From: Beroe forskalii | Lineage: Eukaryota; Ctenophora; Nuda; Beroida; Beroidae | DNA: 64,000 bases | Assembly: GCA_011033025.1 (NCBI GenBank) | Contig: WFMF01000135.1 | Coordinates: forward strand, 62,001 to 126,000 | Direction of reading: 5' to 3' | Shown: positions 1 through 64,000 of the stretch, piece after piece | Layout: every line of letters starts with the position of its first letter | Position numbering within the stretch: the first letter of the stretch is position 1 | Notes under the pieces: generated by a model | Told to the model about the DNA's origin: nothing | Seen by the model: the letters and a program-made list of their open reading frames with translations, nothing else | Databases searched by the model: none | Translations under genes and position numbers: made by a program

Positions 1-1306
1 ACTGTAGCTCCCTCAGGTGGGATGTTTCTGTGTTTCCACTGTAGCTCCCTCAGATGGGATGTTTCTGTGTTTCCACTGTAGCTCCCTCAGGTGGGATGTT
101 TCTGTGTTTCCACTGTAGCTCCCTCAGGTGGGATGTTTCTGTGTTTCCACTGTAGCTCCCTCAGGTGGGATGTTTCTGTGTTTCCACTGTAGCTCCCTCA
201 GGTGGGATGTTTCTGTGTTTCCACTGTAGCTCCCTCAGGTGGGATGTTTCTGTGTTTCCACTGTAGCTCCCTCAGGTGGGATGTTTCTGTGTTTCCACTG
301 TAGCTCCCTCAGGTGGGATGTTTCTGTGTTTCCACTGTAGCTCCCTCAGGTGGGATGTTTCTGTGTTTCCACTGTAGCTCCCTCAGGTGGGATGTTTCTG
401 TGTTTCCACTGTAGCTCCCTCAGGTGGGATGTTTCTGTGTTTCCACTGTAGCTCCCTCAGGTGGGATGTTTCTGTGTTTCCACTGTAGCTCCCTCAGGTG
501 GGATGTTTCTGTGTTTCCACTGTAGCTCCCTCAGGTGGGATGTTTCTGTGTTTCCACTGTAGCTCCCTCAGGTGGGATGTTTCTGTGTTTCCACTGTAGC
601 TCCCTCAGGTGGGATGTTTCTGTGTTTCCACTGTAGCTCCCTCAGGTGGGATGTTTCTGTGTTTCCACTGTAGCTCCCTCAGGTGGGATGTTTCTGTGTT
701 TCCACTGTAGCTCCCTCAGGTGGGATGTTTCTGTGTTTCCACTGTAGCTCCCTCAGGTGGGATGTTTCTGTGTTTCCACTGTAGCTCCCTCAGGTGGGAT
801 GTTTCTGTGTTTCCACTGTAGCTCGGGCTCAGGTGGGATGTTTCTGTGTTTCCACTGTAGCTCCCTCAGGTGGGATGTTTCTGTGTTTCCACTGTAGCTC
901 CCTCAGGTGGGATGTTTCTGTGTTTCCACTGTAGCTCCCTCAGGTGGGATGTTTCTGTGTTTCCACTGTAGCTCCCTCAGGTGGGATGTTTCTGTGTTTC
1001 CACTGTAGCTCCCTCAGGTGGGATGTTTCTGTGTTTCCACTGTAGCTCCCTCAGGTGGGATGTTTCTGTGTTTCCACTGTAGCTCCCTCAGGTGGGATGT
1101 TTCTGTGTTTCCACTGTAGCTCCCTCAGGTGGGATGTTTCTGTGTTTCCACTGTAGCTCCCTTCAGGTGGGATGTTTCTGTGTTTCCACCAGCTCCCTCA
1201 GGTGGGATGTTTCTGTGTTTCCACTGTAGCTCCCTCAGGTGGGGTGTTTCTGTGTTTCCACTGTAGCTCCATCAGGTGGGATGTTTTGTATTCTCTTTCC
1301 CACTAG
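1..1306. repeat. 37-bp minisatellite, about 35 copies, spanning a splice acceptor
   Basis: Near-perfect tandem repeat of period 37 from the left window edge. Every unit contains CCCTCAGGTGGGATG, which matches the acceptor and first bases of the MYCBP2 exon at 1318 (CTCCCAG then GTGGGATG). The final copies (1190-1306) are degenerate and run into that exon. The array is therefore a repeated copy of an intron end plus exon start. It extends beyond the window on the left. Confidence 0.95.
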
Positions 1307-1317
1307 CTCCCTCCCAG

Positions 1318-4300
1318 GTGGGATGGGGTACAACTGTAAAGGCATCTACTGCTCCGGTTGGTCAGGACTGTGTGGGGATGGTGGTCAGGACAAGCTCACC
1401 TGGTACTTGCTGTGTAGCGAGTGTGTGGAGACTTACAAACAGGAACCTCTACCCACTACCGAAACTACTGACAACAACGTTAGTAAATGTGTACTGTGTA
1501 TTGTACTGTTTAATGTACTGAGAGGGTGTACTAGTGTACTACACTGTCCTCAGCATTATTCATCTTGTTGACTGGGGAGTTGTCAGTGTGGTTATTTAAA
1601 CTCTGTTTGCTCGGAACTTACTTGAAGCTTTTCCTTTCTCAATAATTCTCCCCGGTGTTCGTTGGGAAGGTTACCCCCTCCCTAGACTGCCTCTACTTCA
1701 CTATTACAGGACACCGCTCTGGACACAGTGACCTCTCTGTTTCAGGACACCGCTCTGGACACAGTGACCTCTCTGTTTCAGGACACCGCTCTGGACACAG
1801 TGACCTCTCTGTTTCAGGACACCGCTCTGGACACAGTGACCTCTCTGTTTCAGGACACCGCTCTGGACACAGTGACCTCTCTGTTTCAGGACACCGCTCT
1901 GGACACAGTGACCTCTCTGTTTCAGGACACCGCTCTGGACACAGTGACCCCTCTGTTTCAGGACACCGCTCTGGACACACAGTGACCTCTCTGTTTCAGG
2001 ACACCGCTCTGGACACAGTTATTCATCATGTTCTGGACACAGACCTCTCTGTTTCAGGACACCGCTCTGGACACAGTGACTTCTTGACAGGACACCGGTC
2101 TGGACACAGTGACTTCTCTGTTTCAGGACACCGCTCTGGACACAGACTGCCTCTACTTGACTTCTTCAGGACACCGCTCTGGACACAGTAACCTCTCTGT
2201 TTCAGGACACCGCTCTGGACTCAGTGACCTCTCTGTTTCAGGACACCGCTCTGGACACAGTGACCTCTCTGTTTCAGGACACCGCTCTGGACACAGTGAC
2301 CTCTCTGTTTCAGGACACCGCTCTGGACACAGTGACCTCTCTGTTTCAGGACACCGCTCTGGACACAGTTTCCTCCCCGCTGCTGTCGACCAGTGACCTG
2401 GAGGAGCAACTGAGCAACACGCACAACAACGCTCTCTTCCTGCTCTCCCTGTCCCCCATTGTGGAGGTGGCCAGCCCCGACACTCTCGACTACGAGTCCT
2501 TCCTAGAGGAGGCCATGGACGTGAGTCTTACACTGAGATGTGTCTTATGTGACTATACAGCCAGGGTCGTGCATGTCATATTAGTCTTATCCTGGGCGAG
2601 TATCACACCCGTACTTGCTTGCTCCCGACCCTAATCCTGACACAGTTCCAGTGGGTCTTACTCTCGACCCTAAGTCCCTAACCCCGACCCTACCCCTTGT
2701 CAGACTAATACCCTTTGTCAGACCAACCTGGAACCATCCCGGAACAAGTTCCGGGCCCTGCAGCAATGTGAGAACCTGTCTGCCACGCTGTCTCCCATGA
2801 CACCTCTTTCTCCCAACTCCATGGCAACCAGATTCTCTGCACCTCTCACTGAGGCACGTGCAGGGGTTGCTAAGCGCATGGGGCGCTCTATGTCAGTCAA
2901 TGTGCTACCTACTAATGAGGTAAGTTACCATGGTTACCATGGTTACCATGGTAACCATGGTAACCATGGTAGCCATATACTACTTATTAACCATGTACAA
3001 GTTATGGAAATTCTTATTACATTGGTAACAATGCTGAACGCGATGGTAACCATGGTTACCATCATTTCATACATCATTTTCATACAAACCACGCTTCTCA
3101 GACTAGATCGAGGTCACATCACAGCAATCTTCACGACAAAAGACGGCCCAAGTCAGCGAAGATTCCTTCTCACAGCAAAGCCCACCTCACTCTCCCCCAC
3201 CCGGCTCCACCTCACATTCCAGAACATACAGCTCCACCCCACATTCCAGAACATCCAGCTCCACCCCACATTCCAGAACATTCAGCTCCACCCCACATTC
3301 CAGAACACAGCGCTCTAGGAAACGTGCAGAAAGCAGCCTCTGTGGCTGCTATTCCTAGGAAGTCTGTGTCAGCGGCTGGCCGGATTCTAGGGGTAAATAC
3401 TGAGAATACTAACTCTATATTCCCACACAATGTAGCCAACTCACATAGCCAAAGCCAGGATAGAATACCACCGCTCAATGTCATCTTCACACTTCATATC
3501 ACTTGATCCCGCTTGATCGCTCCAACTCCCATTGCCGCCTCAGGTCGAGTACCGAGTATCGAACATTATCCAGAAACCTTCGCCGCAGCTCAAGAAACTT
3601 GCCACCGGAATTTCTCTGGACCGGGGCTGGCTATTCGGCTTCATGACGCAGGTTTTTGCAATAGATGAAGAGATCAAAAGTTGCAATCTCTGCATAAACA
3701 AAGCGCTCAAGAGTGTTTTCAAGCCAAAACAGGTTTTTTACTACACTTTGCCCGAAGGAACTAATTTCACTGTACTTTGCCTGAAGGAACTAACTGTACT
3801 TTGTCTAATTTCAGAAGCAGCCACTGCAAGATCTCGAGGAGGAGCTTATTCGGGGAGTGGAGAAGGCGTGGTCTGTCTCTAAAGGACTGCTGGCTGCTGA
3901 TTGGCTCCTCAGAACAGTGTCCTCCCTTCCCATCCTGCATTGTGTGCTGTGGAGACTCTACATGGGACTTCTCACAGACCCCACTGCTTCTGTGAGTACA
4001 CCAATCACCATGGTTACTGGGGGTACACTCTGGTTACTAGGGTTACTGTGGAGACTCTACATGGGACTTCTCACAGACCCTACTGCTTCTGTGAGTACAC
4101 CGATCACCATGGTTACTGGGGGTACACTCTGGTTACTAGGGTTACTGTGGAGACTCTACATGGGACTTCTCACAGACCCTACTGCCTCTGTGAGTACACC
4201 AATCACCATGGTTACTGGGGGTACACTCTGGTTACTAGGGTTACGGTGGAGGCTTTACATGGGACTTCTCACAGACCCTACTGCTTCTGTGAGTACACCA

Positions 4301-7300
4301 ATCACCATGGTTACTGGGGGTACACTCTGGTTACTAGGGTTACGGTGGAGGCTTTACATGGGACTTCTCACAGACCCTACTGCTTCTGTGAGTACACCGA
4401 TCACCATGGTTACTGGGGGTACACTCTGGTTACTAGGGTTACTGTGGAGACTCTACATGGGACTTCTCACAGACCCCACTGCCTCTGTGAGTACACCCCC
4501 TACACGCGGGGGGGGGGGTTGCTGGTCACTGGGGGGGGTGGTTGCTGGTCACTGGGGGAGGTTTGCTGGTCACTGGGGGAGGTTTGCTGGTCACTGGGGG
4601 GGAGGTTTGCTGGTTACTGGGGGGGTGGTTGCTGGTCACTGGGGGAGGTTTGCTGGTCACTGGGGGAGGTTTGCTGGTCACTGGGGGAGGTTTGCTGGTC
4701 ACTGGGGGGGTGGTTGCTGGTCACTGGGGGGAGGTTTGCTGGTTACGGGGGGGGGGTGGGATTGCTGGTCACTGGGGGGAGGTACACCAGGGTGCCGCCC
4801 CTCGCGTGGGGTAGAAGATGGTTACGGTGGGAATATAGGCTAGTGAAAGTCTTGATAGACTGCTCACTTTCACCCCAGGACTCTAACTCTCACTGGCAGG
4901 TACGGCAAAAAGACGGTCTGTTGCCCATTTGCCAGCACCCTATCAGCAACAGCATCAAGTGCTACGACAGCTGTGTGAGCAAAGCCTTCAGGACGGTGCT
5001 GCAGTCTCTGGCTGATCTCCTTCCTAGACTGCCCCCTGGCTCTGACATTCAGAAGGTAACTAGACTGCCCCCTGGCTCTGACATTCACATTTCACAAGGT
5101 AACTTTGAGAGAACCAGTCAGAGTGATCAGTCACCCTTACTTAGTTACTTCCTGGTTTCAGATGTGATACTGCCACAGTTTTTCCATGTTCCCACTCATT
5201 ACGCCTTACTCAATACCAACTCACAGCTCCTACTGAAGTACTTAAGTACTTACTTTCAGGTGGCTATTTCCTGCTGGAACCTGGAGTTTCAACTCTCATT
5301 ACTCCTAACTCCCTGCTAACTTTCAGGTAGCTATTTCCTGCTGGAACCTGGAGTTTCAACTCTCATTACTCCTAACTCCCTGCTAACTCTCAGGTAGCTA
5401 TTTCCTGCTGGAACCTGGAGTTCCCTCTCTCATTACTCCTAACTCCCAGCTAACTCCCAGGTAGCTATTTCCTGCTGGAACCTGGAGTTCCGGCCGGAGG
5501 ATCACAAGTTCCTGCAAGACTGCCAGGTGTTTAGTCACGTGCACAGACTGCTAACCAGCGCCAGTAGACGAGAGCCTGCAGCCGAGCTGCCTCCCTTCTT
5601 CAGAAGTCAGGAGATCCCTGATGTGAAGGTGTCCACCTCCTCTAGAGAGGCCCTGATCCCCTACCTCTCTGACAAGAAGACAGACACCTTCTGGGAGTCA
5701 GGAGACAAGGACAACTGGATAGCTCTCAAGATACCCTCCCCAAACAACCTACACGCTCTAGCAGTCCACCTCAATAATGAGGAGGACAAGGGATTCATCA
5801 CCACCAAACTCACTCTCAAAGTGGGCAACGTGCCAAAAGTGCTGAAGGTGTTGACTGTCAAGGAGATCAGCGGCAGACACACTGGCTGGATCTGGTTCGA
5901 AGTGTCCGGATTCTCACATATCCAGGTGAGTAGTTTTACGTTATTTAAACCTCAGCCGTGAAACGCTGGAGTATTGTTATATTGAGAGGGAGCTGTCCAC
6001 CCCTTCCCCCTGTACATGCGTATCCTCCTCAGGTTGAGTTCACAGCTAAGTCAGATCACGTGAGAGTGCGGCAGTTGACAGTGTATGGGGGAATGGCAGA
6101 AGTCCAACCCACCAGCCCCCTCCCCTCCATCCAACAATACGCTCTACAAGTCTTCAGGTTCATTTGGGTTGATTCGCTTGTTTCGCTTCTTTCGGGTTGA
6201 TTCGCTTGTTTCGGTTTGTTCTGCTTGTTCCGGCTAGATTCGACCAGTTCCTGTTTGTAGAATCAACGAACACTTCATTCCAGGGTTCTTACTAACGACA
6301 TTCTGAAGAACATTACGAAAGACAGCAGCTGCGATGTGAGCCATGCCTCGGCGGACCTGCAGGAGCACCTGGTGTCTATCCTCTTCGAGCAGTCTCACCT
6401 CACAGGTATTATCTCTCAGTAGAGCAACTCTAGCTTCATAGCAACTATAGTAACAGTAGGAATATTATACCCCAGTAACTCTGTAGTTACTCTACATAGG
6501 ACAGCTCTCGTTGCTATGGTAGCCCTTTTAACCCTAGTTGCCCAGCTACTTAGTAACTGTAGTAACAGTAGGAAAGTTACTCAAATAACTCTTAGGAGAG
6601 ATCCCGTTACTCTGGTAACCGTATGGTAACTCAAGTTACCTTGCTTCCTAAAAAACACCCCTCCCAGAAACTCAAAACAAGGTTCTGATGCACGTGTTAC
6701 TATAGTAACCATAATGCTACCATAGTGTTACCATAGTCCCCCCTCCCAGACACTCAAAACAAGGTTCTGATGCACGTAGTGAACGCTATCAGGAAACAAA
6801 CCCACTCCATCACTGACAAGAACTCCTTCAATGACGACTACTGCTTCGAACTGCTCTCCCTGGTTTCAGGTGAGCGTTGCTTCATCTCCTTCGCCACGGT
6901 TATTCACTGATCAACAGCTGCTCTAGTGTTTCGAAATATTTCCTTGTGTTTAAATTGCAATGCTTCAGCGCTGAGTGGTTCTGCGGCAGGGTGCTTCAAC
7001 CTTGTGATCCACGAGTCGCTGATACAAGACATCTTCAAGCTGCTGCACATGGGAACTACTCGGATCCAGAGACAAGTGATCCTACTGCTCAGGCGGATAC
7101 TCTCTCAGATCTCCCCTGAGAAACTGTGCAAGATAACCGGCACCTGCATCCCCACCTTCCCATTCGAGGAGGAGCCTGACTGTCAGGGGAGCCCAGGTTC
7201 CCAGGGGAGTCCAGATGCGGGCAGACAGGTGCTAACCAGCACCCCTCAGAAGAAGGGGGAGTGCGTGCCCCTCACTCCTTCCCCCGGCAAAAGGTCCTCT

Positions 7301-10300
7301 TCTGGAGGAGTTTACAAGAGAACAGTCCTCAACAAACTACTGGCCTACGTGATGAAGAGCATCAAACTCATCGTGAAGAGCAAGAGCAGGAGGGAGGGGG
7401 AGCAAAGTGCTGACATGAACATCAAACACTCGGTAACTATAGTAACTATAGTAACGTCAAACACTCCTTAGCAACCTTAGTAACCATAGCAACCCTTGTA
7501 ACATCAAACACTCAGTAACCTTAGCAACCCTTGTTACTGCTCCTGACAGGATTATTGGGTGCATGGCACTGTTGCTCCTGACCTAGCACAGGAGGTAGTC
7601 ACCCTACTAAAGGACATGGTGGAAGGGAAGTTAGGAGAGGAGTGGAGGGAGTGTGTTCAGGGCTGTCTCAGCTACTTCATCCTCTCCCTCACCCTAATCC
7701 CAGAGGAGAGCAGGACAGAGGACAGAATCGCAGAGAACAGGGGCCTCTGGCTCGCTCTAGCGGCCCTATCTATCATGGACGACGACCTGATGTCATCTGT
7801 CACTGTAACCAAGGTCAGAGGCCTTCTCAGCTCCTCTAGTTTACGATTAGTAGATCCTAAAAGTTTCAATATGCTAATACAAGAAAATAAATACGACCCT
7901 ATTAAAACTTCCTATCAATAGAAATAGAAGGAAGTACCCGGGTTTTCTGATAACATCCTATCTCCACCCTGACTCCCTGACTAATTACTATTTCCTTTCT
8001 AGGAGGCTGGTAAGGTTGAGTACTGCGAGAACCATGACGACGGTCGCACCAAGGCGCTCATCACGTGCACTAAGTGCGGGTTCCTGTGCACTGAGTGTGA
8101 CAAGTACCTTCATTTGAGCAGGAAGTCAAAGTCTCACCAGCGACAGGTTAGTTACACAGGAGATACCCCCTCCTCCGCCGCTAATCAGGCCTTATCTAAG
8201 GGTTAGTTGCACAGGAGATACCCCCTCCCCCGCCGCTAATCAGGCCTTATCTAAGGGTTAGTTACACAGGAGATACCCCCTCCTCCGCCGCTAATCAGGC
8301 CTTATCTAAGTGTTAGTTACACAGGAGATACCCCCCCCGCCGCTAATCAGGCCTTATCTAGGGTTAGTTAAGTGTTGGTTATCTAAGTGTTACAGGAGAT
8401 ACCCCCCCCGCCGCTAATCAGGCCTTATCTAAGTGTTAGTTACACAGGAGATACCCCTCCTCCGCCGCTAATCAGGCCTTATCTAAGGGTTAGTTACACA
8501 GGAGATACCCCCCCCCGCCGCTAATCACAGGAGATACCCCTCCGCCGCTAATCAGGCCTTATCTAAGTGTTAGTTACAGGAGATACCTCCCCCCGCCGCT
8601 AATCAGGCCTTATCTAAGTGTTAGTTACACAGGAGATACCCCCTCCCCCGCTAATCAGGCCTTATCTAAGTGTTAGTTACACCTCCGCCGCTAATCAGGC
8701 CTTATCTAAGTGTTAGTTACACAGGAGATACCCCCCCCGCCGCTAATCAGGCCTTATCTAAGTGTTAGTTACACAGGAGATACCCCCCCCCCCGCCGCTA
8801 ATCAGGCCTTATCTAAGTGTTAGTTACACAGGAGATACCCCCTCCTCCGCCGCTAATCAGGCCTTATCTAAGTGTTAGTTACACAGGAGATACCCCCTCC
8901 CCCGCCGCTAATCAGGCCTTATCTAAGTGTTAGTTACACAGGAGATACCCCCCCCGCCGCTAATCAGGCCTTATCTAAGGGTTAGTTACACAGGAGATAC
9001 CCCCTACCCGCCGCTAATCAGGCCTTATCTAAGTGTTAGTTACACAGGAGATACCCCCTCCTCCGCCGCTAATCAGGCCTTATCTAAGGGTTAGTTACAC
9101 AGGAGATACCCCCTCCGCCGCTAATCAGGCCTTATCTAAGTGTTAGTTACACAGGAGATACCCCCCCCGCTAATCAGGCCTTATCTAAGTGTTAGTTACA
9201 CAGGAGATACCCCCTCCTCCGCCGCTAATCAGGCCTTATCTAAGGGTTAGTTACACAGGAGATACCCCCTCCTCCGCCGCTAATCAGGCCTTATCTAAGG
9301 GTTAGTTACACAGGAGATACCCCCTCGGCCTCCCCCGCCGCTAATCAGGCCTTATCTAAGGGTTAGTTACACGGGAGATACCCCTCCCCCGCCGCTAATC
9401 AGGTCTTATCTAAGGGTTTAGGGTAGTCATGGAAGGTGATTATTGAGATTGGGAGGGTTGGATGAACTTACTATCTGAGGGGTGATAAAGAAAAGGATTA
9501 TGGAGATTGGGAGGGTTGGATAATAATACTGTTGCAGGTGTTCAAGGGGGCTGAAGCGAGTGTAGTACTGCACAAGCACGAGAGCATGAGCAGAGTGAAG
9601 CTGTATTGGATGATGGCTGTAGTGGACACCCAGTCCAGCAAGGCCGTCATAGAGTTCAGAAACACTTACTCCACCCAGCAAGACATTCTCATCTGCAGGT
9701 AACTATAGTAACCATAGTTACTCTGTAACCATAGTAACCACTAACCATAGTAACCATAGTAACCACTAACCACTCACCATAGTTACATCAAGCACTCTGT
9801 AACCATAGTAACCACTCACCATAGTAACCAGTCTTACTCCACCCAGCAAGACATTCTCATCTGCAGGTAACCATAGTAACTCTGTAACCATAGTAACCAC
9901 TCACCATAGTAACCATAGTAACATCAAGCACTCTGTAACCATAGTAACTACTCACCATAGTAACCATAGTAACATCAAGCACTCTGTAACCATAGTAACC
10001 ACTCACCATAGTAACCATAGTAACATCAAGCACTCTGTAACCATAGTAACCACTCACCATAGTAACCAGTCTTACTCCACCCAGCAAGACATTCTCATCT
10101 GCACTGTGTAACCATGGTAACCATAGTTACTTCCTATAACCATAGTAACCACTAACCATAGTAACCATAGTAACATCAAGCACTCTGTAACCATAGTTAC
10201 CACTAATCATAGTAACCAGTCTTACTCCACCCAGCAAGACATCCTCATCTGCAGGTAACCATAGTTACTCTGTAACCATAGTAACCACTCACCATAGTAA

Positions 10301-13300
10301 CCATAGTAACATCAAGCACTCCTTAACCATAGTAGCCACTCACCATAGTAACCAGTCTTACTCCACCCAGCAAGACGTCCTCATCTGCAGGCGATTAACC
10401 TGTAGTAACCATCGAGCACAGTGTAACCATAGTAACCAATGACCATAGTAATCATAGTTACATCTAACACTCTGTAACCATAGTAACCATTAATGACTAA
10501 CCAATAACCATAGTAGCAATTTGTTGGAGATTCTTGTGTTGTGGAGCATTATGTGAATTCTTTTGTTGCGGAGCAATGAGCATTGAGCGCTCCCTCGCCT
10601 GTTTAATAATTACTGGTTGTTGCTATAATATAATAATTGGTAATGAATCATTAGTACCATTGTTTCTGTTTGCTCGTTTCTGGTTGCTATGGCTCTATGG
10701 CAACTGGTTGCTGCATGGTTAATTGTTGCTATAGTAACTGGTTACTGAATAACAAGGTATTGCTATAGTAACTGGTTGCTAAGCTGTTATTTCTCTCAGG
10801 TTCTGCAATGAGACAGGAGAACCCAGCCCAGAGGGAGGGAGTCTGTGTAAGAACGAGGATTGCAACGCAAAGTTCAAAGTCTCCTGCAAAAGGACTCTGT
10901 CTTGTGGACACCCATGTTATGGTATGCTAACTAACCACTTGCTAGTTCATGTTTGAGGCTGGTGAAAAGAGACTGAAAGTTGCTGCTTTATATCTTATAG
11001 ATTTATTACCGGTTTCCCTCCCAGGAAACGTTGGAGAGGAAGTTTGTCTGCCCTGTCTCAAGAACTGCTCCGGAACACTCAAGCAGGATGCTGACGATAT
11101 GTGCGTTATCTGCTTCACTGGTAAGAGCTTTATGAAGGAGCATGTTATGTGTTTTATCTGCTTCACTGGTAAGAGCTTTATGAAGGAGCATTTATGTGTG
11201 TTATCTGCTTCACTGGTAAGAGCTTTATGAAGGAGCATGTAATGGTTAATTTATGAAGGAGCATGTTTTGTTCTACCTAATCCTGCAACCTCCCAACATT
11301 TACTAGCTACTCTGAAGTCTGAATTCCTCCTAACATTGGTCACTCAGAATTCCCCATAACCCTGCTCCCTTCTGAATTCCCAGTTCCCCCTAACCCTGCC
11401 CCCCTCAGAGAGTCTAGGCTGTGGCCCGTGTGTGCAGTTGACCTGTGGACACATTCTCCACACCGAGTGTGTGGCTAGAGTAATTTCCAGCCGCTGGGTG
11501 GGTCCCCGCATCACCTTCTCCTTTCTGCACTGCCCTATTTGCAAGGCAGTCCTAGGACATCCTCACTTTAACGAGGAGCTGAAGCCGCTGCTAATGCTGA
11601 AGGAAGACGTGTTGAGGAAGAGTGTTATGCGGCTCAAATACGATGGAATCGCATTGTGAGTGACAAAAGCTTTACGAGATTATTAGTGTTTCTCTGACTT
11701 AAAAGCTTCGGAGACTTGAAATTAACCCCAATATTTGCATTTGCTACTCTGTAGCTCCATCGTCTTTAGTTTCTCTATAGTCCCTCCAGTTTGTCTAATA
11801 TCTCTAGTTCGAGTAGAGTAGTAGAGCAGTAGGTAGTCTCTCTATTTTATCCCTTCTCAGTGATGAAGAGTCGGAAGCCGCCGAGTTCTCCGCTAACAAG
11901 TACGCTTACTACCAGTGCTACAAGTGCAGCAAGGCTTACTTCGGGGAGAGGCTCAGTGCCAAGCTAACGCTGGAGATGTGAGTACCACGTGCACTGCGCG
12001 CAGTGCACGTGCACAATGTACAGTTCCACGTGCACACTGTACAGTTGCACGTGCACTGCGCGCATTGCACGTGCACAATGTACAGTTGCACGTGCACTGC
12101 ACGCATTGTACGTGTGAACTGTACCGTTGCAAGTGCACTGCACGCATTTCACTTGCACTGCAGGCATTGCACATGCACTCTGTATAGTTTCACCTGAATT
12201 TTGCGCAGTGCACGGGCACTCTGTACAGTTGCACGTGCACTTCGCACATGACACCGTGTGGAGTGCTGAGTGTTTTATGGATATGTGACTATGAACCCGT
12301 AAAGGCACTGTTTAGCCCCCACTTGATAATGCGCAAACCCATGATCTGGAGTGTGTAATTTCTCATCAAGATCGCATTTGTGGGAGTAATTTGATGAGGC
12401 ATTGTTAAATGCACCTCCATTTCTACACTGAGTGTTTACATGACGTCATCAACTCACCATTCTAAGTTGTGATAATGACGTCATCAACCCACTATCATAA
12501 ACTCTCCTGGTGACGTCATTGCGATCCCTTGTTATTAGCGCCCAGGCTTAGTGGCTCCAATGCTAATACCCCTACGAATTGGAATCTATCTTATGTTTCC
12601 GCTGTTTGGTTAATGGTTTCTTTATTTGTTGTTTTGTTCAGGAGTTTGATCCCTCCTTTAATTTGTTTAGGAATTTGACCCCGTCCTTTAATTTGTTCAG
12701 GAGTTTGACCACCCATCCCTTATAATTTGTTCAGGAGTTTGACCCCCCAACCCTTATAATTTGTTCAGGAGTTTGGCCCCCTCCCCCTTTATTTTGTTCA
12801 GGAGTTTGACCCCCTCCCCCTTTATTTGGTTCAGGAGTTTGACCACTCCCCCCTTTAATTTGTTCAGGAGTTTGACCACCCATCCCTTATAATTTGTTCA
12901 GGAGTTTGACCCCCTCCCCCTTTATTTTGTTCTGGAGTTTGACCCCCTCCGCTCCCCCTTCATTTTGTTCAGGAGTTTGACCCACCCACCCCTTATACTC
13001 CTAAAACTTGTTCAGGAGTTTGACTCCCTCCCCTTTATTTTGTTCTGGCTGACCTTTTGTCAGGGGGCTTTATTTTGCAGGAGTTTGCAACTTTTATCTT
13101 GTTCAAGAAGTGTGCCCTAAGCACGGCACTGATTATCTCGAGTACAAGTGCAGGTAACCATAGTTACCCTGTTACCATGGTAACCCTGTTACCATAGTAA
13201 CCCTGTTACCATAGTAACCCTGTAACCATAGTAACCCTGTTACCATAGTGACCCTGTTACCATAGTAACCCTGTTACCATAGTAACCCTGTTACCATAGT

Positions 13301-14891
13301 AACCCTGTTACCATAGTAACCCTGTTACCATAGTAACCCTGTTACCATAGTAACCCTGTTACCATAGAAACCCTGTTACCATAGTAACCCTGTTACCATA
13401 GAAACCCTGCTACCATAGTAACCCTGTTACCATAGTAACCCTGTTACCATAGTAACCCTGTTACCATAGTAACCCTATTACCATAGTAACCCTGTTACCA
13501 TAGTAACCCTGTTACCATAGTAACCCTGTTACCATAGAAACCCTGTTACCATAGTAACCCTGTTACCATAGTAACCCTGTTACCATAGTAACCCTGTTAC
13601 CATAGTAACCCTGTTACCATGGTAACCCTGTTACCATAGTAACCCTGTTACCATAGTAACCCTGTTACCATAGTAACCCTGTTACCATAGTAAACCTGTT
13701 ACCATAGTAACCCTGTTACCATAGTAACCCTGTTACCATAGTAACCCTGTAACCATGGTAACCCTGTTACCATAGTGACCCTGTTACCATAGTAACCCTG
13801 TTACAATAGTAACCCTGTTACCATACCTACACTGTTACCATAATAACCCTGTTACCATAGTGACCCTGTTACCATATTAACCCTGTTACCATAGTAACCC
13901 TGTTACCATAGTAACCCTGTTACCATAGTGACCCTGTTACCATAGTAATCCTGTTACCATAGTAACCCACCTGTTACCCTAGTAACCCACCTGTTACCAT
14001 AGTAACCCTGTTACCATCCATTCTTTGATATGGTAACATCGAGAACTATTCCAAAGTTCAGTTTTCTCGTTACTACCTTATCCTATTTTCTTGTTAATAA
14101 CATCCCATTTTAATTTTATTTTGAAGGTTTAACTTCTATTCCAACAGCCGTGCGGCCAATGACAGGAATCGAAGGATTCAAGTGTAAGCAAGCCAGTGAC
14201 GGTTAAGGAAGTGTAATCCATACTTTAATCGCCCGAGACTTCGCTGCAATGGGCAGCTCCGCACAGTTTCCTGTACGCTCGGCTGAGTGAACCGTCGGGC
14301 TGCATTGGATTGAGATAAATCTCTCACCCTTAGCTCAGTGGCGCTGGCCGGGATTCGAACTCAGGATCTTTCGATCCTGTGCTCAAATCGATACCACCAC
14401 ACCACTGACCATCTAGCCCACCTCCCTGTAAACACCCTCTCCCCAGGTACTGCTGCCGCATTACTAATAACCCCTCCTTCCTCCCCAGGTACTGCTGCCG
14501 CATTACTAATAACCCCTCCTTCCTCCCCAGGTACTGCTGCCGCATTACTTATAACCCCTCCTTCCTCCCCAGGTACTGCTGCCGCATTACTAATAACCCC
14601 TCCTTCCTCCCCAGGTACTGCTGCCGCATTACTAATAACCCCTCCTTCCTCCCCAGGTACTGCTGCTCGGTGGCTGTGTACTTCTGTTTCGGCTCCACCC
14701 ACTTCTGCACGCCCTGTCACGACGACTTTGTGAGGTTGCGGGGACTGGCTCGGGAAGCTCTCCCCTCCTGCCCTGTGGGACCCCAGGCAGTGCAGCTGGA
14801 GGGCGCCTGCCCACTGGGGGTGGACCACCCGAGCACAGGGGAGGAGTTCGCTCTGGGGTGTGGGGTCTGCAGGAACGTGCAGACTTTCTAG
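1318..14891 (+). CDS. MYCBP2: MYCBP2/PHR E3 ubiquitin ligase, C-terminal third (21 exons seen, 5' part outside window)
   Basis: PHR ligases attach ubiquitin to Ser/Thr of targets and act in axon and synapse regulation (family knowledge). Exons I place by GT-AG sites and phase: 1318-1478, 2350-2520, 2722-2919, 3102-3392, 3544-3732, 3815-3991, 4879-5055, 5461-5925, 6033-6157, 6284-6405, 6750-6869, 6969-7432, 7550-7813, 8003-8146, 9538-9698, 10800-10921, 11025-11120, 11409-11655, 11861-11977, 13081-13153, 14657-14891. All junctions are phase-compatible except 11977/13081. About 1,370 codons are visible against roughly 4,640 in human. Domains in order: a Cys-rich block, linker, DOC/APC10-like domain, helical region, zinc-binding block, RING, tandem-cysteine relay, and the conserved C-terminus ending [10 protein letters not shown]...TF. 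Identity is certain from the RING and C-terminus; a few exon ends may be off. Confidence 0.95.
1705..2369. repeat. 36-bp minisatellite, about 18 copies, spanning a splice acceptor
   Basis: Unit of 36 bp containing CTGTTTCAG followed by GACACCGCTCTGGACACAGT, that is, an acceptor and the first 20 nt of the MYCBP2 exon that starts at 2350. The last copy runs directly into that exon. Because 36 is a multiple of 3 and the unit has no stop, much of the array is open in several frames. It is disturbed by shorter or altered copies at 1981-2220. Confidence 0.95.
2921..2975. repeat. TACCATGGT dyad repeat at the donor of exon 2722-2919
   Basis: Starts inside the GTAAGT donor and repeats TTACCATGG / CCATGGTAA, so each block is self-complementary. 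A related GGTAACCATGGTTACC block lies at 3043-3060. Same family as the GTAAC-type arrays further along. Confidence 0.85.
3218..3315 (+). repeat. 27-bp coding repeat inside a MYCBP2 exon
   Basis: Four consecutive 27-bp units encode a 9-residue repeat of the form APPHIPEHx in the exon 3102-3392. The period is a multiple of three and the frame is the gene's own frame, so this is a real protein repeat in a low-complexity linker, unlike the intronic arrays. Confidence 0.85.
3940..4496. repeat. 99-bp tandem repeat carrying the exon end and donor of exon 3815-3991, six donor copies
   Basis: GTGAGTACACC donor-like starts recur at 3992, 4091, 4190, 4289, 4388 and 4487, exactly 99 bp apart. Each unit holds about 50 nt of exon end (coding [13 protein letters not shown]) and about 50 nt of intron start containing ACCATGGTTAC. 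Copies differ by a few substitutions. 99 is 33 codons, so one frame stays open through the array. Confidence 0.95.
4505..4790. repeat. G-rich minisatellite of about 20-22 bp
   Basis: About 13 copies of a unit with core TTTGCTGGTCACTGGGGG in the intron before exon 4879. Runs of 5-10 G recur on the coding strand. Not obviously related to a splice junction. Confidence 0.9.
5030..5103. repeat. Duplication across the donor of exon 4879-5055
   Basis: The exon end CTAGACTGCCCCCTGGCTCT...GACATTCA is repeated in the intron directly after the first GTAACT donor and is followed by a second AAGGTAACT. Two donor copies 47 bp apart. Confidence 0.8.
5250..5510. repeat. 67-bp tandem repeat, four copies, spanning the acceptor of the DOC exon
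   Basis: Copies of CAG followed by GTAGCTATTTCCTGCTGG start at 5260 (GTGGCT variant), 5327, 5394 and 5461, exactly 67 bp apart. Only the copy at 5461 continues into a long open frame. The other three are acceptor plus about 30 nt of exon plus short intron filler. Confidence 0.95.
5461..6157 (+). other. MYCBP2: MYCBP2 DOC/APC10-like domain exons
   Basis: Exons 5461-5925 and 6033-6157 encode a region starting [10 protein letters not shown], then a jelly-roll DOC-type segment: [28 protein letters not shown], a HIS-rich turn and GWIWFEV. In the PHR family this domain precedes the C-terminal ligase module and has a substrate or co-factor role. The second exon codes [11 protein letters not shown], matching the end of the family domain. 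Splice phases are 0 then 2. Confidence 0.9.
6410..6749. repeat. Intron with GTAAC/GTTAC clusters and a duplicated acceptor
   Basis: Many ACTATAGTAACAGTAGG and TACCATAGT motifs. At 6647-6690 there is a copy of the next acceptor and exon start (CCTCCCAG then AAACTCAAAACAAGG), 98 bp upstream of the real one at 6750 (CCTCCCAG then ACACTCAAAACAAGG). Confidence 0.8.
8003..8146 (+). other. MYCBP2: MYCBP2 B-box-like zinc-binding exon
   Basis: Codes for [20 protein letters not shown] followed by [20 protein letters not shown] and RQ. The ordered Cys/His pairs match the zinc-binding block that lies before the RING in PHR proteins. Acceptor TTTCTAG, donor CAG then GTTAGT, phase 0 to 0. Confidence 0.9.
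8147..9420. repeat. About 55-bp minisatellite, about 23 copies, starting at the donor
   Basis: Unit with TTAGTTACACAGGAGATACC and GCCGCTAATCAGGCCTTATC. It starts with the donor of exon 8003-8146 and fills most of the intron. Length varies through a C/T-rich run (CCCCCTCCTCCG type), and a few copies are partly deleted (8520, 8690). Confidence 0.95.
9640..10520. repeat. Compound GTAACCATAG array with four extra copies of an exon end and donor
   Basis: After the exon 9538-9698 the intron consists of GTAACCATAGTAACC and AACATCAAGCACTCTG blocks. The exon end plus donor (CAAGACATTCTCATCTGCAG with flanking bases) recurs near 9835, 10071 (partial donor), 10223 and 10356. Several of these could be spliced as donors. 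Confidence 0.95.
10800..11655 (+). other. MYCBP2: MYCBP2 Cys-rich segment and RING domain
   Basis: Exons 10800-10921, 11025-11120 and 11409-11655. The first two carry FCNETGE..., [15 protein letters not shown] and the start of the RING (DDMCVICFT). The third carries [14 protein letters not shown], the family signature [18 protein letters not shown], and a charged helix ending RLKYDGIAL. The RING binds the E2; here Cys and His ligands are all present. Splice phases 2-1-1-2 are consistent. Confidence 0.95.
11100..11268. repeat. About 50-bp repeat spanning the donor inside the RING
   Basis: TTATCTGCTTCACTGGTAAG with AGCTTTATGAAGGAGCAT is repeated three times from 11104, 11152 and 11198, with a remnant at 11246. 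The unit holds the last exon codons (VICFT) and the GTAAGA donor. Confidence 0.9.
11985..12250. repeat. CACGTGCA-rich palindromic repeat array
   Basis: Units of roughly 33 bp built from GCACGTGCACTGCGC and ATGTACAGTTGCACGTGCAC. Both CACGTG and TGTACA are palindromes, so the array is open on both strands and could fold. It fills the first part of the intron after 11977. The rest of the intron, 12250-12600, is unique-looking. Confidence 0.85.
12636..13075. repeat. About 36-bp array resembling an acceptor plus exon start
   Basis: About twelve copies of TTTGTTCAGGAGTTTGACC with a C/T-rich filler. The exon placed at 13081 begins with GCAG then GAGTTTGCAAC, so the array repeats an acceptor and the first exon bases. 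The sequence GTTCAAGAAG at 13101 may be a further decayed unit, so the true start of this exon is uncertain. Confidence 0.85.
13154..14022. repeat. 17-bp satellite, about 50 copies, starting at a donor
   Basis: Unit GTAACCCTGTTACCATA repeats from the donor of exon 13081-13153 nearly to 14022. The donor GTAACC is itself the start of the first unit. Variants GAAACC, GTGACC and CATGG are scattered. Confidence 0.97.
14111..14416 (-). mobile_element. SINE with tRNA-related head, copy 1
   Basis: About 300 bp shared with 48011-48300, for example TGACGGTTAAGGAAGTGTAA, TACGCTCGGCTGAGTG and the far ends. On the minus strand the start reads like a tRNA, with a B-box-like GAGTTCGAATCCC and a short anticodon-arm-like hairpin (AGGATCGAAAGATCCT). 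I infer a tRNA-derived SINE on the minus strand, sitting in the last MYCBP2 intron about 30 nt upstream of the acceptor array. Confidence 0.8.
14447..14660. repeat. 42-bp repeat, five copies, spanning the last MYCBP2 acceptor
   Basis: CTCCCCAGGTACTGCTGC recurs every 42 bp. The real exon follows the sixth acceptor, at 14657, where the sequence changes from GTACTGCTGCCGCATTAC to GTACTGCTGCTCGGTGGC. Each unit is an acceptor plus 12 exon bases plus a short intron piece. Confidence 0.95.
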
Positions 14892-15872
14892 TTGCTTAGC
14901 AACCTTATAGTTGCTTAACAACCTCCTAGGGTGTGGGGTCTGCAGGAACGTGCAGACTTTCTAGTTGCTTAGCAACCTTATAGTTGCTTAACAACCTCCT
15001 AGGGTGCGGGGTTTGCAGAAACGTGCAGACTTTTTAGTTGCTTAGCAACCTTATAGTTGCTTAACAACCTCCTGGGGTGCGGGGTTTGCAGAAACGTGCA
15101 GACTTTCTAGTTGCTGAGCAACCTCCTGGGGTGCGGGATCTGCAGGAACGTGCAGAGTTTCTAGTTGCTTAGCAACCTTATAGTTGCTTAACAACCTCCT
15201 AGGGTGCGGGGTTTGCAGAAACGTGCAGGCTTTCTAGTTGCTTAGCACGTCCGGAGATGTGGGGTCTGCAGGAACGTGCAGACTTTGTAGTTGCTGAGCA
15301 ACCTCCTGGGGTGTGGGGTCTGCAGGAACGTGCAGACTTTCTAGTTGCTTATAGTTGCTGAGCAACCTCCTGGGGTGTGGGGTCTGCAGGAACGTGCAGA
15401 CTTTCTAGTTGCTTATAGTTGCTTAACAACCTCCTGGGGTGTGGGGTTTGCAGAAACGTGCAGGCTTTCTAGTTGCTTAGCACGTCCGGAGATGTGGGGT
15501 CTGCAGGAACGTGCAGACTTTGTAGTTGCTGGGCAACCTCCTGGGGTGTGGGGTCTGCAGGAACGTGCAGACTTTCTAGTTGCTTAGCAACCTTATAGTT
15601 GCTGAGCAACCTCCTGGGGTGTGGGGTCTGCAGGAACGTGCAGAGTTTCTAGTTGCTTAGCAACCTTATAGTTGCTTAACAACCTCCTGGGGTGTGGGGT
15701 CTGCAGGAACGTGCAGACTTTCTAGTTGCTTATAGTTGCTGAGCAACCTCCTGGGGTGTGGGGTCTGCAGGAACGTGCAGACTTTCTAGTTGCTTATAGT
15801 TGCTGAGCAACCTCCTGGGGTGTGGGGTCTGCAGGAACGTGCAGACTTTCTTATTGCTGAGCAACCTCCTAG
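14855..15872. repeat. About 72-bp repeat, about 13-14 copies, spanning the MYCBP2 stop codon
   Basis: The unit contains GTGTGGGGTCTGCAGGAACG and CAGACTTTCTAGTTGCTTAG, i.e. the last codons, the TAG stop and the first 3'-UTR bases, followed by a TTGCTTAGCAACC-type block. Copies vary in length (some lack one TTGCTTA block) and some change TTC TAG to TTG TAG or TTT TAG. Only the first copy is in frame after the exon. Confidence 0.95.
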
Positions 15873-16370
15873 CAACACGGCGTGTTGCTGCGTCACCCAA
15901 AAAAGTACTGCGTCTTCTGCTAGCTAGTAGGTTGGTATTCCAATGACACTGCAAGTCCAGTGCAATTTGGTAGTACCTATAGGGACATTTTAACTGAAAC
16001 ATCAATCTTTCTTTTCTTGCAGCCCTGCAAATGGGTTTTTATGACACCCCAATATTTTAGTTTATGATTCTCTTGCTTTGAAATGTTTTGTACGTTTGTT
16101 TAGGACCAATACTAAAAAGAGGTATAATTTTTGTGAAATTTAGCGATGTATTTTATTCTAAGTTACCAAACAATGACAAAACTTCAGGTGTTATTCGTTT
16201 TCTAGTTTTTGATTTATTTTGGAGATTTTATGTGACACCATCATAGTTCCTATCAATGAATTTGTTTGAACTTTTTACTGTTATATTTGTTAGTTTTGTA
16301 CCACTTTATTTGTTGAGTTATGGGACTTCTTAGGCGTGGATAATAAAGTCAATATACTTTTATAAAAGTT
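14892..16370 (+). other. MYCBP2 3' UTR and poly(A) signal
   Basis: After the stop-codon array, 15873-16340 is AT-rich with no coding signal. AATAAA at 16342-16347, followed by AT-rich sequence, is the best candidate poly(A) signal for MYCBP2. Confidence 0.6.
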
Positions 16371-33504: not shown

Positions 33505-33721
33505 CTGCGGGAAGGTTAATAAAATAAATAAAAAAAATAGTGCGGGGGAGAACGGAAGTCAACCGACCAACGGTCACTTGTGTAAAATATTCTCGGTTTC
33601 GGCCAATCGGTTTCGTCGAGTAGGATTAGAATTTAAGGCTGTGAGGGAGAACGTTCAAGAAACAATTTCTATAACTGACTTTTTCTTGGTGATTTATTAG
33701 GGGGAGAGAGAAGTCGTCAGA

Positions 33722-35156
33722 TTGCAGATTTTTGCAGTCGAGTCGTCGGTTGGAGTCGTCGGTTGGAGTCGTCGGTTGGAGTCGTCGGGTGGAGTCGTCG
33801 AGTCGAGTCGTCGAGTCGAGTCGTCGAGTCGAGTCGTCGAGTCGAGTCGTCGAGTCGAGTCGAGTCGTCGAGTCGAGTCGTCGAGTCGAGTCGAGTCGTC
33901 GAGACGAGTCGTCGAGTCGAGTCGTCGAGTCGAGTCGTCGAGTCGAGTCGTCGAGTCGAGTCGTCGAGTCGAGTCGTCGATTCGAGTCGTCGAGTCGAGT
34001 CGTCGAGTCGAGTCGTCGAGTCGTCGAGTCGTCGAGTCGAGTCGAGTCGTCGAGACGAGTCGTCGAGTCGAGTCGTCGAGTCGAGTCGTCGAGTCGAGTC
34101 GAGTCGAGTCGAGTCGTCGAGTCGAGTCGTCGAGTCGAGTCGAGTCGTCGAGACGAGTCGTCGAGTCGAGTCGTCGAGTCGAGTCGTCGAGTCGAGTCGT
34201 CGAGTCGAGTCGTCGAATCGAGTCGTCGAGTCGAGTCGAGTCGTCGAGTCGAGTCGTCGAGTCGTCGAGTCGTCGAGTCGAGTCGTCGAGTCGTCGAGTC
34301 GAGTCGAGTTGTCGAGTCGATTCGAGTTGAGTCGTCGAGTCGAGTCGAGTCGTCGAGTCGTCGAGTCGTCGAGTCGACGAGTCGAGTCGTCGAGTCGAGT
34401 CGTCGAGTCGTGTCGTCGAGTCGAGTCGTCGAGTCGTCGAGTCGAGTCGAGTCGTCGAGTCGTCGAGTCGTCGAGTCGAGTCGAGTCGAGTCGTCGAGTC
34501 GTCGAGTCGTCGAGTCGAGTCGTCGAGTCGAGTCGAGTCGTCGAGTCGAGTCGAGTCGAGTCGTCGAGTCGTCGAGTCGAGTCGTCGAGTCGAGTCGTCG
34601 AGTCGAGTCGAGTCGTCGAGTCGAGTCGAGTCGAGTCGTCGAGTCGTCGAGTCGTCGAGTCGTCGAGTCGAGTCGTCGAGTCGAGTCGTCGAGTCGTCGA
34701 GTCGTCGAGTCGAGTCGAGTCGAGTCGAGTCGTCGAGTCGAGTCGTCGAGTCGTCGAGTCGTCGAGTCGAGTCGTCGAGTCGAGTCGTCGAGTCGTCGAG
34801 TCGTCGAGTCGTCGAGTCGAGTCGTCGAGTCGAGTCGTCGAGTCGAGTCGTCGAGTCGAGTCGTCGAGTCGAGTCGTCGAGTCGAGTCGTCGAGTCGAGT
34901 CGTCGAGTCGAGTCGTCGAGTCGAGTCGTCGAGTCGAGTCGTCGAGTCGAGTCGTCGAGTCGAGTCGTCGAGTCGAGTCGTCGAGTCGAGTCGTCGAGTC
35001 GAGTCGTCGAGTCGAGTCGTCGAGTCGAGTCGTCGAGTCGAGTCGTCGAGTCGAGTCGTCGAGTCGAGTCGTCGAGTCGAGTCGTCGAGTCGAGTCGAGT
35101 CGTCGAGTCGAGTCGTCGAGTCGATTTGTCGAGTCGATTTTCGAGTAGCCGAGTCG
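33722..35156. repeat. CpG-dense satellite built from CGAGT and CGT words
   Basis: About 1.4 kb made almost only of the 5-base word CGAGT and the 3-base word CGT in varying order. From about 34830 to 35090 the order becomes regular (13-bp unit CGAGTCGAGTCGT). A CpG occurs every 3-5 bases. No stop codon can form in most frames, which explains long open frames on both strands; these are not genes. Confidence 0.97.
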
Positions 35157-35446
35157 TTGAATCGAATCGACGAATCGAATCGACGAATCGAATCGACGAA
35201 TCGAATCGACGAATCGAATCGACGAATCGAATCGACGAATCGAATCGACGAATCGAATCGACGAATCGAATCGACGAATCGAATCGACGAATCGAATCGA
35301 CGAATCGAATCGACGAATCGAATCGACGAATCGAATCGACGAATCGAATCGACGAATCGAATCGACGAATCGAATCGACGAATCGAATCGACGAATCGAA
35401 TCGACGAATCGAATCGACGAATCGAATCGACGAATCGAATCGACGA
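35157..35446. repeat. 13-bp satellite CGAATCGAATCGA
   Basis: About 22 perfect copies directly after the CGAGT/CGT array; the same 5+5+3 word pattern with A in place of G/T. A short inverted block (TCGATTCGATTCG) lies at 35526-35553 beyond a hairpin. Confidence 0.97.
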
Positions 35447-35485
35447 AAAAAGCGTCCCTATAGGAGTATGGGGACGCTTTTTCAA
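35446..35485. repeat. Hairpin at the end of the CGAAT array
   Basis: AAAAAAGCGTCCC and GGGGACGCTTTTT form a stem of about 13 bp around a loop of about 12 bases (35446-35485). It is between the CGAAT array and its inverted remnant. Confidence 0.75.
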
Positions 35486-35592
35486 AAAAGCTGACATTAT
35501 TATTTATCGGAATCCGATAAGCCTCGTCGATTCGATTCGTCGATTCGATTCGTAGAGAACTGCAGCACTTAATTCGATTGCATATTTGTATA

Positions 35593-36280
35593 CCTTATTG
35601 TAGGAAATTAAGCACTCAGAAAATTAAGCACCAATGCCTCGAAAAGGGCTTAATTTCATGGTGCTTAATGACATGCTGGCTTAATTTTTGTATACCTTAA
35701 TTTTCGAATAATTTTGGGATTTTTAAATGTCAAAAAATGTTCGATATTTTGCTATATTATATGTACAGTGCTAATTTAGAACAATGGAAGTAAAGAATTT
35801 AAATAATAATTTAATGATGAATTGAAAATAGTGGAATAATCAAATATCCTCGCCATAAGCCTCCGTCTCCTCGTCTTCAGCTTCCACAAATTCTTGGTTC
35901 TACATCCTTTTAAATCATTCTTGTCAGATCTTCCAAAGCTGTAGCTCTCCTTGATGTACGCACAGAACACCAAAAACTTAATCTTTTCTTCAACTGACCA
36001 TTCAAGTCTGACCTGGCTCCTGATCTACAGCCCTCCTTGTGTGATTGGTGGCCGGAACTGTTCTTCTGTCAGGACTTAAATCTGTTTTACATAACAGACG
36101 CACATTGCAATTTGCATTTCATTTGTATAAATTGTGAAAAATTTAATTAAGCCTACAAGTAATTAGGCCTACCTGAATGTTAATGCTATTAAGCACCAGA
36201 TGTGTTAAAAGGGCCTAATTTCATGGTGCTTAATGACGTGTAGGCTTAATTTTTTGAGTGCTTAATTTCCTACAATAAGG
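35593..36280. mobile_element. 688-bp TIR element with a degenerate minus-strand ORF
   Basis: Ends CCTTATTGTAGGAAATTAAG at 35593 and its inverted copy ending at 36280; inverted similarity continues for over 30 bp plus an inner inverted block (TTCATGGTGCTTAATGAC type). Flanked by TATA on both sides, consistent with a TA or TATA target duplication. Inside, minus strand 36010-35776 codes WSVEEKIKFLVFCAYIKESY and then SFGRSDKNDLKGC; an acidic tail EDEETEAYGEDI is readable in another frame. I cannot assign the superfamily. Confidence 0.75.
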
Positions 36281-37006
36281 TATAGGGAGGGCAAGGAGGA
36301 AAAAGGTATGTGGCATGTCTATATAAAAGTTCAAAGTAGCGTCAATTATTATAACGTCAACGTATCGGCCTACTTTTAAGCCACGAACCATAAAAACATG
36401 AAACGGGGAAACCGTTTCATTGTTTGTATCATTAACTGCTAACGCAATTTCATTTCTTTGCTTATCTGCAATCCACCCTATCGTAATTTTCGTTAAGTTG
36501 TGAAAGATGTTTCTACAGGTTGTTTCAAACTTTCAATATTAGGTATTTATATATTCCAAAAGATTCCTGAAGCGACAATCAACCTGGATATGCAACGATT
36601 TTAATCTATAATTCGGAAGTTCGGATATTCTACAAAAATATCATATGCAATTATTTTATAGGCGACGGATTTATTGCATCACCAGAGTAAGGAAATGATG
36701 TACCAAATTCTGGAGACAATTTTCAGAAGGAGGCGATAACTGATTCCACTGAGGCGATATTTAATGCTCTTCATGGTGATGTCGCATTCTGGGTGGGGGC
36801 TATTTATCATAATATGATAGCGACATTATTTCATGCCATGGTGTATGAAAATTATCGCTGAAAGTTTACATATTATGTAAACTAGAGTGATGACTTGATA
36901 AAGATTCCCAAATTGCTTATTGCAATCCAGGCCTACCAAGTTTTTGAACACCAAAATTTTTACTCCACATAACTACACCTGTACCTACTAAGGAATTGTT
37001 GATGGA
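36281..37006. other. AT-rich stretch without a recognised gene
   Basis: No coding signal or long repeat seen. One small dyad, AAACGGGGAAACCGTTT, at 36400. Confidence 0.5.
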
Positions 37007-37805
37007 AACCGTGAGTTTGGCCTGAATGGTGATTGATATCTTCTAGTTATGACCCAACTGAGATGCCTACCCAAATTTGGTGCGTCTATCTTGTCAGAAG
37101 TCGAGATATGGCACTTGCCACCATTTTCATGACTATCCCCAAATTACTGGCACATGTGCCAAATGCCATAGAATGAAACCAAATTTTCGGGTTTTTAAAC
37201 TTGTTTTGAGGTTTAAATGGTCAGATAGGATGGAATAAGGTTACTAGAATTTGTTTGAATCATTTCGCGGTCGATTTTCAAGAAATGGTGACACGGTGAC
37301 ACCAAAATGACACCGTGACACCAATTTCAAAAATGCTCCAAATTTGTTCGGAATCACATTTAAACGTTCAGATAGTCAAAGTAAGTCACTAAAACATCAT
37401 TCTGATTCAAAGTAATCGGTTTAATCGACCAAAATTTCGATCCTGACATAGCCTGAATTCTGAAAATACAGTGTCACATGGCCTTAATGGCAAAAAATGT
37501 GTCAAAACCGACCAAAAACCGTGAGTTTGGCCTGAATGGTGATTGATATCTTCTAGTTATGACCCAACTGAGATGCCTGCAAAATTTGGTGCGTCTATCT
37601 TGTCCAGAAGTCGAGATATGGCACTTGCCACCATTTTCATGACCTCAGAGTATCCCCCAAATTACTGGCACATGTGCCAAAATGTGCCAGAATGAGAAAC
37701 CAAATTTTCGGGTTTTTAAACTTGTTTTGAGGGTTCTAAATGGTCAGATAGGATGAAATAAGGTTACTAGAATTTGTTTGAATCATTTCGCGGTCGATTT
37801 TAAAG
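37007..37805. repeat. 511-bp tandem repeat, direct copies (left part)
   Basis: One full and one partial unit; unit starts ACCGTGAGTTTGGCCTGAAT at 37007 and 37518. The unit contains CACATGTGCCA and a GTGACACCGTGACACC block. The second unit is interrupted at about 37805 by the LINE and resumes at about 39688. Confidence 0.85.

Positions 37806-59514: not shown

Positions 59515-64000
<4,486 letters not shown>

Follow-up and report, generated by a model that had tools for sequence, protein, structure and literature searches.

Minisatellite-like duplications of intron/exon boundaries are known from amphioxus, where these "mirages" have been described in Adh3, globin, TnC and PGBD5 with variable unit lengths and, according to the sections of the reports that deal with them, with splicing apparently undisturbed (PMC3087553, PMC3902484). 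Length polymorphism, even somatic, counts among the traits of this kind. In human, internal tandem repeats lie at exon-intron boundaries in segmental duplications and, in the account given in the corresponding part of the source, can alter splicing (PMC2812944). A related proposal concerns the origin of introns: in the Rogers model, as summarized in a passage of PMC3087553 that cites it, introns are gained by tandem duplication of AG|GT, and a potato RdRp case of intron gain by tandem duplication is outlined in part of PMC4974935.

Here we analyze a ctenophore homologue of MYCBP2 whose tandem arrays resemble all three. With the mirages, as portrayed in the relevant sections of PMC3087553 and PMC3902484, they share units that span the exon edge and the splice site, occurrence at both donors and acceptors, variable unit lengths, and AG/GT decoys in many units. 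Minisatellites of ~30-bp units at exon edges are common to this gene and the human boundary repeats, as far as the latter are described in the corresponding part of PMC2812944, and tandem units containing AG|GT are common to this gene and the Rogers model.

Gene identity and exon set

The window is the whole stretch of 64,000 nucleotides of Beroe forskalii DNA under analysis (C176:62001-126000), from a genome of 216 Mb in 1134 contigs. The gene is read on the + strand, and C176:1-70000 and C176:126001-136000 were added to the window. Its C-terminal exons match the human MYCBP2 chains 5o6c (E 2e-42) and 6t7f (E 7e-41), further exons contain the Pfam domains PHR (2e-25), RCC1 (3e-11) and ANAPC10 (1e-4), and the RING region is about half identical to that of human MYCBP2, as judged by eye from the alignment. 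The homology search also yielded two fragments without a name.

The curated set comprises 58 exons and 57 introns with AG/GT borders; it combines reading by eye with the output of a small gene finder, for which exons of the window itself served as training set. Gene finding with a weak intron penalty was rejected for over-prediction (631 pieces), and stricter penalties with hand curation were adopted; a few curated exons came from the weak-penalty run or were read by eye. The list excludes the first copy of a segmental duplicate (contig 24.2-33.6 kb), pieces inside arrays, and doubtful predictions (contig 11593, 12264, 12574, 13250, 14722, 14983, 16647, 21907, 24010, 25967 and 29470/40522). 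The finder is home-made and trained on the same gene, the upstream part of the gene is incomplete, and a few multi-kilobase introns may conceal exons; missed exons would blur the placement test.

Tandem arrays carrying splice junctions

Tandem repeats (TRF score >=50) occupy 0.24-0.79 of each 4-kb bin over MYCBP2, about half on average, and a mean share of 0.088 (0.006-0.29) in 13 other 10-kb stretches. The junctions of the window were read from the sequence and then re-tested by ungapped self-alignment through each junction, with a copy sought within 300 bp and a threshold of 9, one more than the highest score among 150 shuffled controls. In MYCBP2 as a whole, such a copy runs through 26 of 115 edges (25 of 114 junctions, and the stop codon), eight of the 25 junctions with low scores (10-20), and both boundary types are affected, donors at 16/57 and acceptors at 9/57. 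Such self-similarity is not due to chance, as shuffled windows are duplicated at 0-0.00025. Acceptors 1318 and 13081 are by-eye additions to the 25; the ungapped test missed them because their last copy has a 2-bp indel (TAGCTCCCTC--AGGTGGGATG and TTTATTTTG--CAGGAGTTTG, respectively).

The ten junctions that the initial annotation had named, together with the stop codon, do lie in repeats that carry the junction itself (10/10), three of them (1318, 5055 and 13081) only when small indels are allowed; its unit lengths needed adjusting where it had given 47 and 72 bp, for which TRF gives 48 and 73 bp. An eleventh repeat-carried junction of the window, the weak donor 7432, was absent from its list. 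The 37-bp array at acceptor 1318 extends 87 bp upstream of the window, and at donor 11120 the lag of 95 found by the ungapped test corresponds to about two units of 48.

Table 1. Exons, tandem arrays and duplications of the MYCBP2 homologue (window coordinates), and one array in another gene.
Feature	Coordinates	Strand	Details
21 curated 3'-terminal exons of the MYCBP2 homologue	1318..14890	+	37 more upstream, same contig
37-bp array	1..1330	+	unit with acceptor 1318 and ~8-11 bp of exon; TRF, by eye; missed by ungapped test
36-bp array	1707..2369	+	acceptor 2350 and 20 bp of exon; lag 36 bp; TRF, ungapped test
27-bp (9-codon) in-frame repeat	3204..3307	+	within exon 3102-3392, whose 5' part follows the open frame as judged by eye; TRF
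99-bp array	3947..4497	+	45 bp of exon end and donor 3991; lag 99; TRF, ungapped test
Two-copy duplication	5020..5110	+	around donor 5055; indel, weak (score 11); ungapped test
67-bp array	5252..5489	+	acceptor 5461 and ~29 bp of exon; lag 67; TRF, ungapped test
Two-copy duplication	6657..6780	+	acceptor 6750 and 28 bp of exon; lag 82; ungapped test
Repeated exon end	7415..7525	+	exon end and donor 7432; lag 82, score 17, extra copy by eye; ungapped test
55-bp array	8146..9418	+	starts at donor 8146 (1 exon base); abuts, no crossing; TRF
Higher-order array	9657..10490	+	at least 34 bp of exon end and donor 9698; lag 168; TRF, ungapped test
48-bp array	11098..11244	+	23 bp of exon end and donor 11120; TRF, ungapped test
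33-bp array	12633..13090	+	acceptor 13081 and ~8 bp of exon; TRF, by eye; missed by ungapped test
42-bp array	14439..14666	+	acceptor 14657 and 10 bp of exon; lag 42; TRF, ungapped test
73-bp array	14856..15867	+	last codons, stop 14890 and start of 3' UTR; lag 73; TRF, ungapped test
Acceptor array in L014	L014:3269-3880		unit GCAG|GTTTCATCCCGTACACC, ~23 bp, ~25 copies, ~0.6 kb

Placement of arrays relative to splice junctions

Placement was probed at the level of arrays using the 61 intronic arrays with a period of at least 7, an array being taken as crossing if it includes at least 5 exon bases. Under the null, each array is collapsed to one unit, which is a modelling choice, and a unit of the same length is placed uniformly in the collapsed intron. 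Junction-crossing arrays number 13 of 61, and 13.5 +- 2.8 are expected. By period, crossings are 0/17 vs 1.0 expected at 7-19 bp, 1/16 vs 3.3 at 20-39 bp and 11/25 vs 7.4 at 40-149 bp, and one of the three arrays with longer periods crosses. The median collapsed intron measures 201 bp and the crossing units 31-133 bp, so that about one in five randomly placed units straddles an edge; the premise of the initial annotation that random placement would rarely do so is not borne out.

In a second approach, we counted junction-centred windows with a near copy (lag <=300), and derived the expectation from the introns concerned, in which each array was weighted as a single unit. This self-similarity test gives 18 of 114 junctions vs 21.1 expected, a ratio of 0.85 (bootstrap 0.54-1.24), with ratios of 0.79-0.87 over four window settings and 0.65-1.19 over seven variants of the test. 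The ratio is 1.19 (0.63-1.91) in the window-only subset (8/40 junctions vs 6.7), 0.92 for lags of at least 30, 0.65 for introns <600 bp and 0.95 where both exons measure at least 90 bp. The laxest (ungapped) test gives 25/114 vs 35.2 (0.71, 0.48-1.00), and with the raw repeat coverage of introns as baseline, junctions fall short (18 vs 44.4). The counts leave room for a modest excess among periods of 40-150 bp or in the window taken alone.

Some features of these tests bear on how their figures are read. The ungapped tests overlook at least two true crossings (1318 and 13081), yet are equally blind inside introns. The array test used the best-scoring TRF periods, and for the other tests eight periods were reset by hand to a shorter basic unit. 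The intron with the segmental duplicate entered the array test whole; for the expectation of the self-similarity tests it was restricted to the stretch beyond 33630. A KS test of the exonic share of units (p 2e-4 vs uniform) was discarded, because many of its lags span several periods and so depress the exonic share.

Across the junctions of the curated exons, the duplication profile has no peak at the junction: values are 0.23-0.41 over the 120 bp of intron nearest the edge, 0.19 for donors and 0.14 for acceptors at the edge itself, and 0-0.07 at 40 bp into exons. The renewed rise further out comes from the next intron, which is soon reached since exons are mostly short. Copy number is also alike in crossing and interior arrays (medians 5.6 and 5.1, p 0.52). 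Placement is therefore near-random, and the overlap of arrays with junctions, which the initial annotation had proposed to compare with shuffled positions genome-wide, shows no overall excess in MYCBP2 and speaks against its claim that the arrays are seeded on splice junctions.

Duplications inside exons

Blind placement would put 11.7 arrays wholly within the 58 curated exons and only one is present, the 27-bp in-frame repeat (Poisson P 1e-4). When edge runs are set aside, duplicated windows amount to 97/7956 in exon interiors vs 23508/45703 in introns, and all 97 lie in the exon of this 27-bp repeat, an exon partly delimited by eye. Exon interiors are thus depleted, which suggests, as the initial annotation had offered as a second possibility, selection that tolerates duplication where splicing hides it. 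Multiples of 3 make up 5 of the 13 crossing units, close to a third, and a like one-sided pattern is seen at the stop codon, which is not a splice signal.

Decoy splice sites

Copies of splice sites within the arrays, here called decoys, were scored by a position matrix trained on MYCBP2 itself, with at most eight scores listed per site, and often score like the authentic site. The largest number at one junction is 26, at contig acceptor 36668, where the eight scores listed are 2.9-5.4 vs 5.2 for the authentic site, followed by contig donors 14568 (20 decoys) and 18923 (16). In the window, acceptor 2350 has 16 decoys (the eight scores listed are 7.3-7.9 vs authentic 7.9), donor 3991 has 5 equal ones, acceptor 14657 has 5, acceptor 5461 has 3, donor 11120 has 2 equal ones, and donor 9698 has 2 weaker ones (4.8 vs authentic 6.7). 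Weaker decoys also accompany contig 21597 and window 7432, and the position-matrix scan found none at contig 41171, 44617 and 49831. At one junction, the 11120/11409 splice, human MYCBP2 and the peptide of the joined exons align with no insertion, which is what use of the first donor would give. A tentative reading, which we hold at somewhat below even odds, is that mirage-type arrays extend beyond amphioxus and become so dense that the splicing of one gene has to pick, again and again, the outermost of up to ~26 similar tandem sites, the choice then being set by position (first donor, last acceptor) and not by strength.

Arrays in other genes and surrounding sequence

An acceptor array that carries the acceptor and the first ~16 bases of the exon is also found in L014, a transporter-like gene on contig C1 (Pfam Sugar_tr 4e-24), so that splice-edge arrays are not confined to MYCBP2. 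Across seven other gene models, of which two lie in the right part of the window, 2 of 58 junctions are crossed, one strongly (L014) and one weakly. This control is small, consists of mostly predicted, unproven models and cannot test a genome-wide claim. Splice-edge arrays are rare among these few genes, in which tandem arrays are less dense. Three introns of the myosin gene L023 hold TRF arrays, none of which reaches an exon as judged from the coordinates.

Large arrays outside MYCBP2 lie at window 33736-35446 (13-bp unit), 41580-42886 (~61-bp) and 48651-53021 (19-bp, ~230 copies). At window 61333-62645 there are exons resembling, by eye, CTP:phosphoethanolamine cytidylyltransferase, and a 24-bp array at 63157-63861 begins ~500 bp downstream of the last such exon read and is not at an exon edge. 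By eye, ~1.6 kb of L009 (L009:1230-2860) contains many repetitions of a short phrase like 'cctaattccggcca'. A palindromic motif like GTTACCATGGTAAC, which we take to resemble the X-box bound by RFX factors, occurs at 2.1 per kb in the gene region (window 1-16000, C176:11000-78000) and at 0.03 per kb in shuffled sequence. Its density is 0.66 per kb over the following 58 kb, and other stretches totalling 130 kb contain it 3 times; it lies within 13 of 59 arrays.

Discussion

Our data point to splice-edge minisatellites in MYCBP2 that are tolerated at exon edges, placed there by chance and selected against inside exons, a reading to which we assign a probability of about 0.8. As a plausible course of events, MYCBP2, lying in a repeat-prone stretch, would have gained many independent minisatellites, with new tandem duplications arising regardless of gene structure, presumably by slippage or unequal exchange. 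Duplications inside exons would be purged by selection unless in frame, and intronic, edge-straddling or stop-straddling ones would survive. The straddling ones would survive through their outermost splice site (the first of the donors, the last of the acceptors) or outermost stop, from which a correct product can still be made, the extra copies being spliced out or left in the 3' UTR. As introns were short before they expanded, roughly one unit in five would straddle an edge by chance.

Arrays could instead start at junctions if the DNA there were prone to breakage or slippage on account of splice signals or co-transcriptional R-loops, and the presence of 25 of 114 junctions and the stop codon within repeats, the 11 of 25 crossings at periods of 40-150 bp and the window ratio of 1.19 would fit such an origin. 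However, overall the observed counts equal or fall below expectation and the profile is without a peak at the junction; moreover, the stop codon behaves alike and crossing arrays have no extra copies, which makes junction seeding quite unlikely. Selection might also keep the decoys themselves, with the arrays supplying alternative splice sites or in-frame coding repeats: decoys often score like authentic sites, the gene finder reads portions of the 36-bp array as exon, and the 36-bp unit at 2350 can be read as 12 protein letters, an example of an in-frame coding repeat. Against this, the share of crossing units that are multiples of 3 is near a third, irregular copies interrupt the 36-bp array, and crossing arrays are not enriched, so that we regard such selection as quite improbable.

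An intron born by AG|GT tandem duplication is expected to have its donor and acceptor in copies of one unit. Several acceptor units do contain AG|GT (1318, 5461, 14657 and L014), and donor and acceptor flanks match at 15/30 or more in 3 of 57 introns, where ~1.2 are expected (null share 2%). However, the number of introns with one TRF array crossing both ends is 0 of 57, donor and acceptor 30-mers within an intron match at 8.8/30 on average vs 9.0 for mismatched pairs, and the best within-intron match is 16/30 vs a null maximum of 19. With no both-end array and flank likeness at the null level, no recent intron birth is seen, and the suggestion in the initial annotation that the gene displays this process many times over loses its ground; it is very improbable that the arrays show introns being born in this way, and old births by tandem duplication are compatible with the same figures. 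Over-expansion or mis-joining of arrays in the assembly would be suggested by a segment of MYCBP2 with several exons that is present twice upstream of the window (C176:24294-30017 and ~33667-41027), ~90-94% identical in aligned rows, through duplication or assembly error. Such an artefact is hardly to be expected for the junction arrays, whose copies differ from each other (TRF matches 83-98%) and which have a like acceptor array in an unrelated gene on another contig; we infer that the arrays are real.

With tolerance and chance as the preferred reading, a striking mechanism, repeats born at splice sites, gives way to a quantitative null that anyone can apply: where introns are short, random minisatellites must often straddle exon edges. 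MYCBP2 also offers a natural set of similar tandem splice sites, useful for studying how the spliceosome chooses among equals.

Among the known systems, the Rogers model differs in what it leads one to expect at both intron ends: an array crossing both is absent in all 57 curated introns of MYCBP2. Some of the human boundary repeats make novel introns with RNA support, according to the part of the source that describes them (PMC2812944), whereas MYCBP2, read from genome sequence, gives no clear sign of a new intron. The arrays studied here probably work like the amphioxus mirages and belong to that kind, judging from the sequence features they share. They differ in number, with ~25 junctions affected in one gene, in contrast to the one or two boundaries per globin or PGBD5 gene in the sections of the amphioxus reports that describe these genes (PMC3087553, PMC3902484), and in the application of a placement null. 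The kind itself is known from amphioxus; what is new in MYCBP2 is the density of mirages and the presence of up to 26 decoys at one junction.
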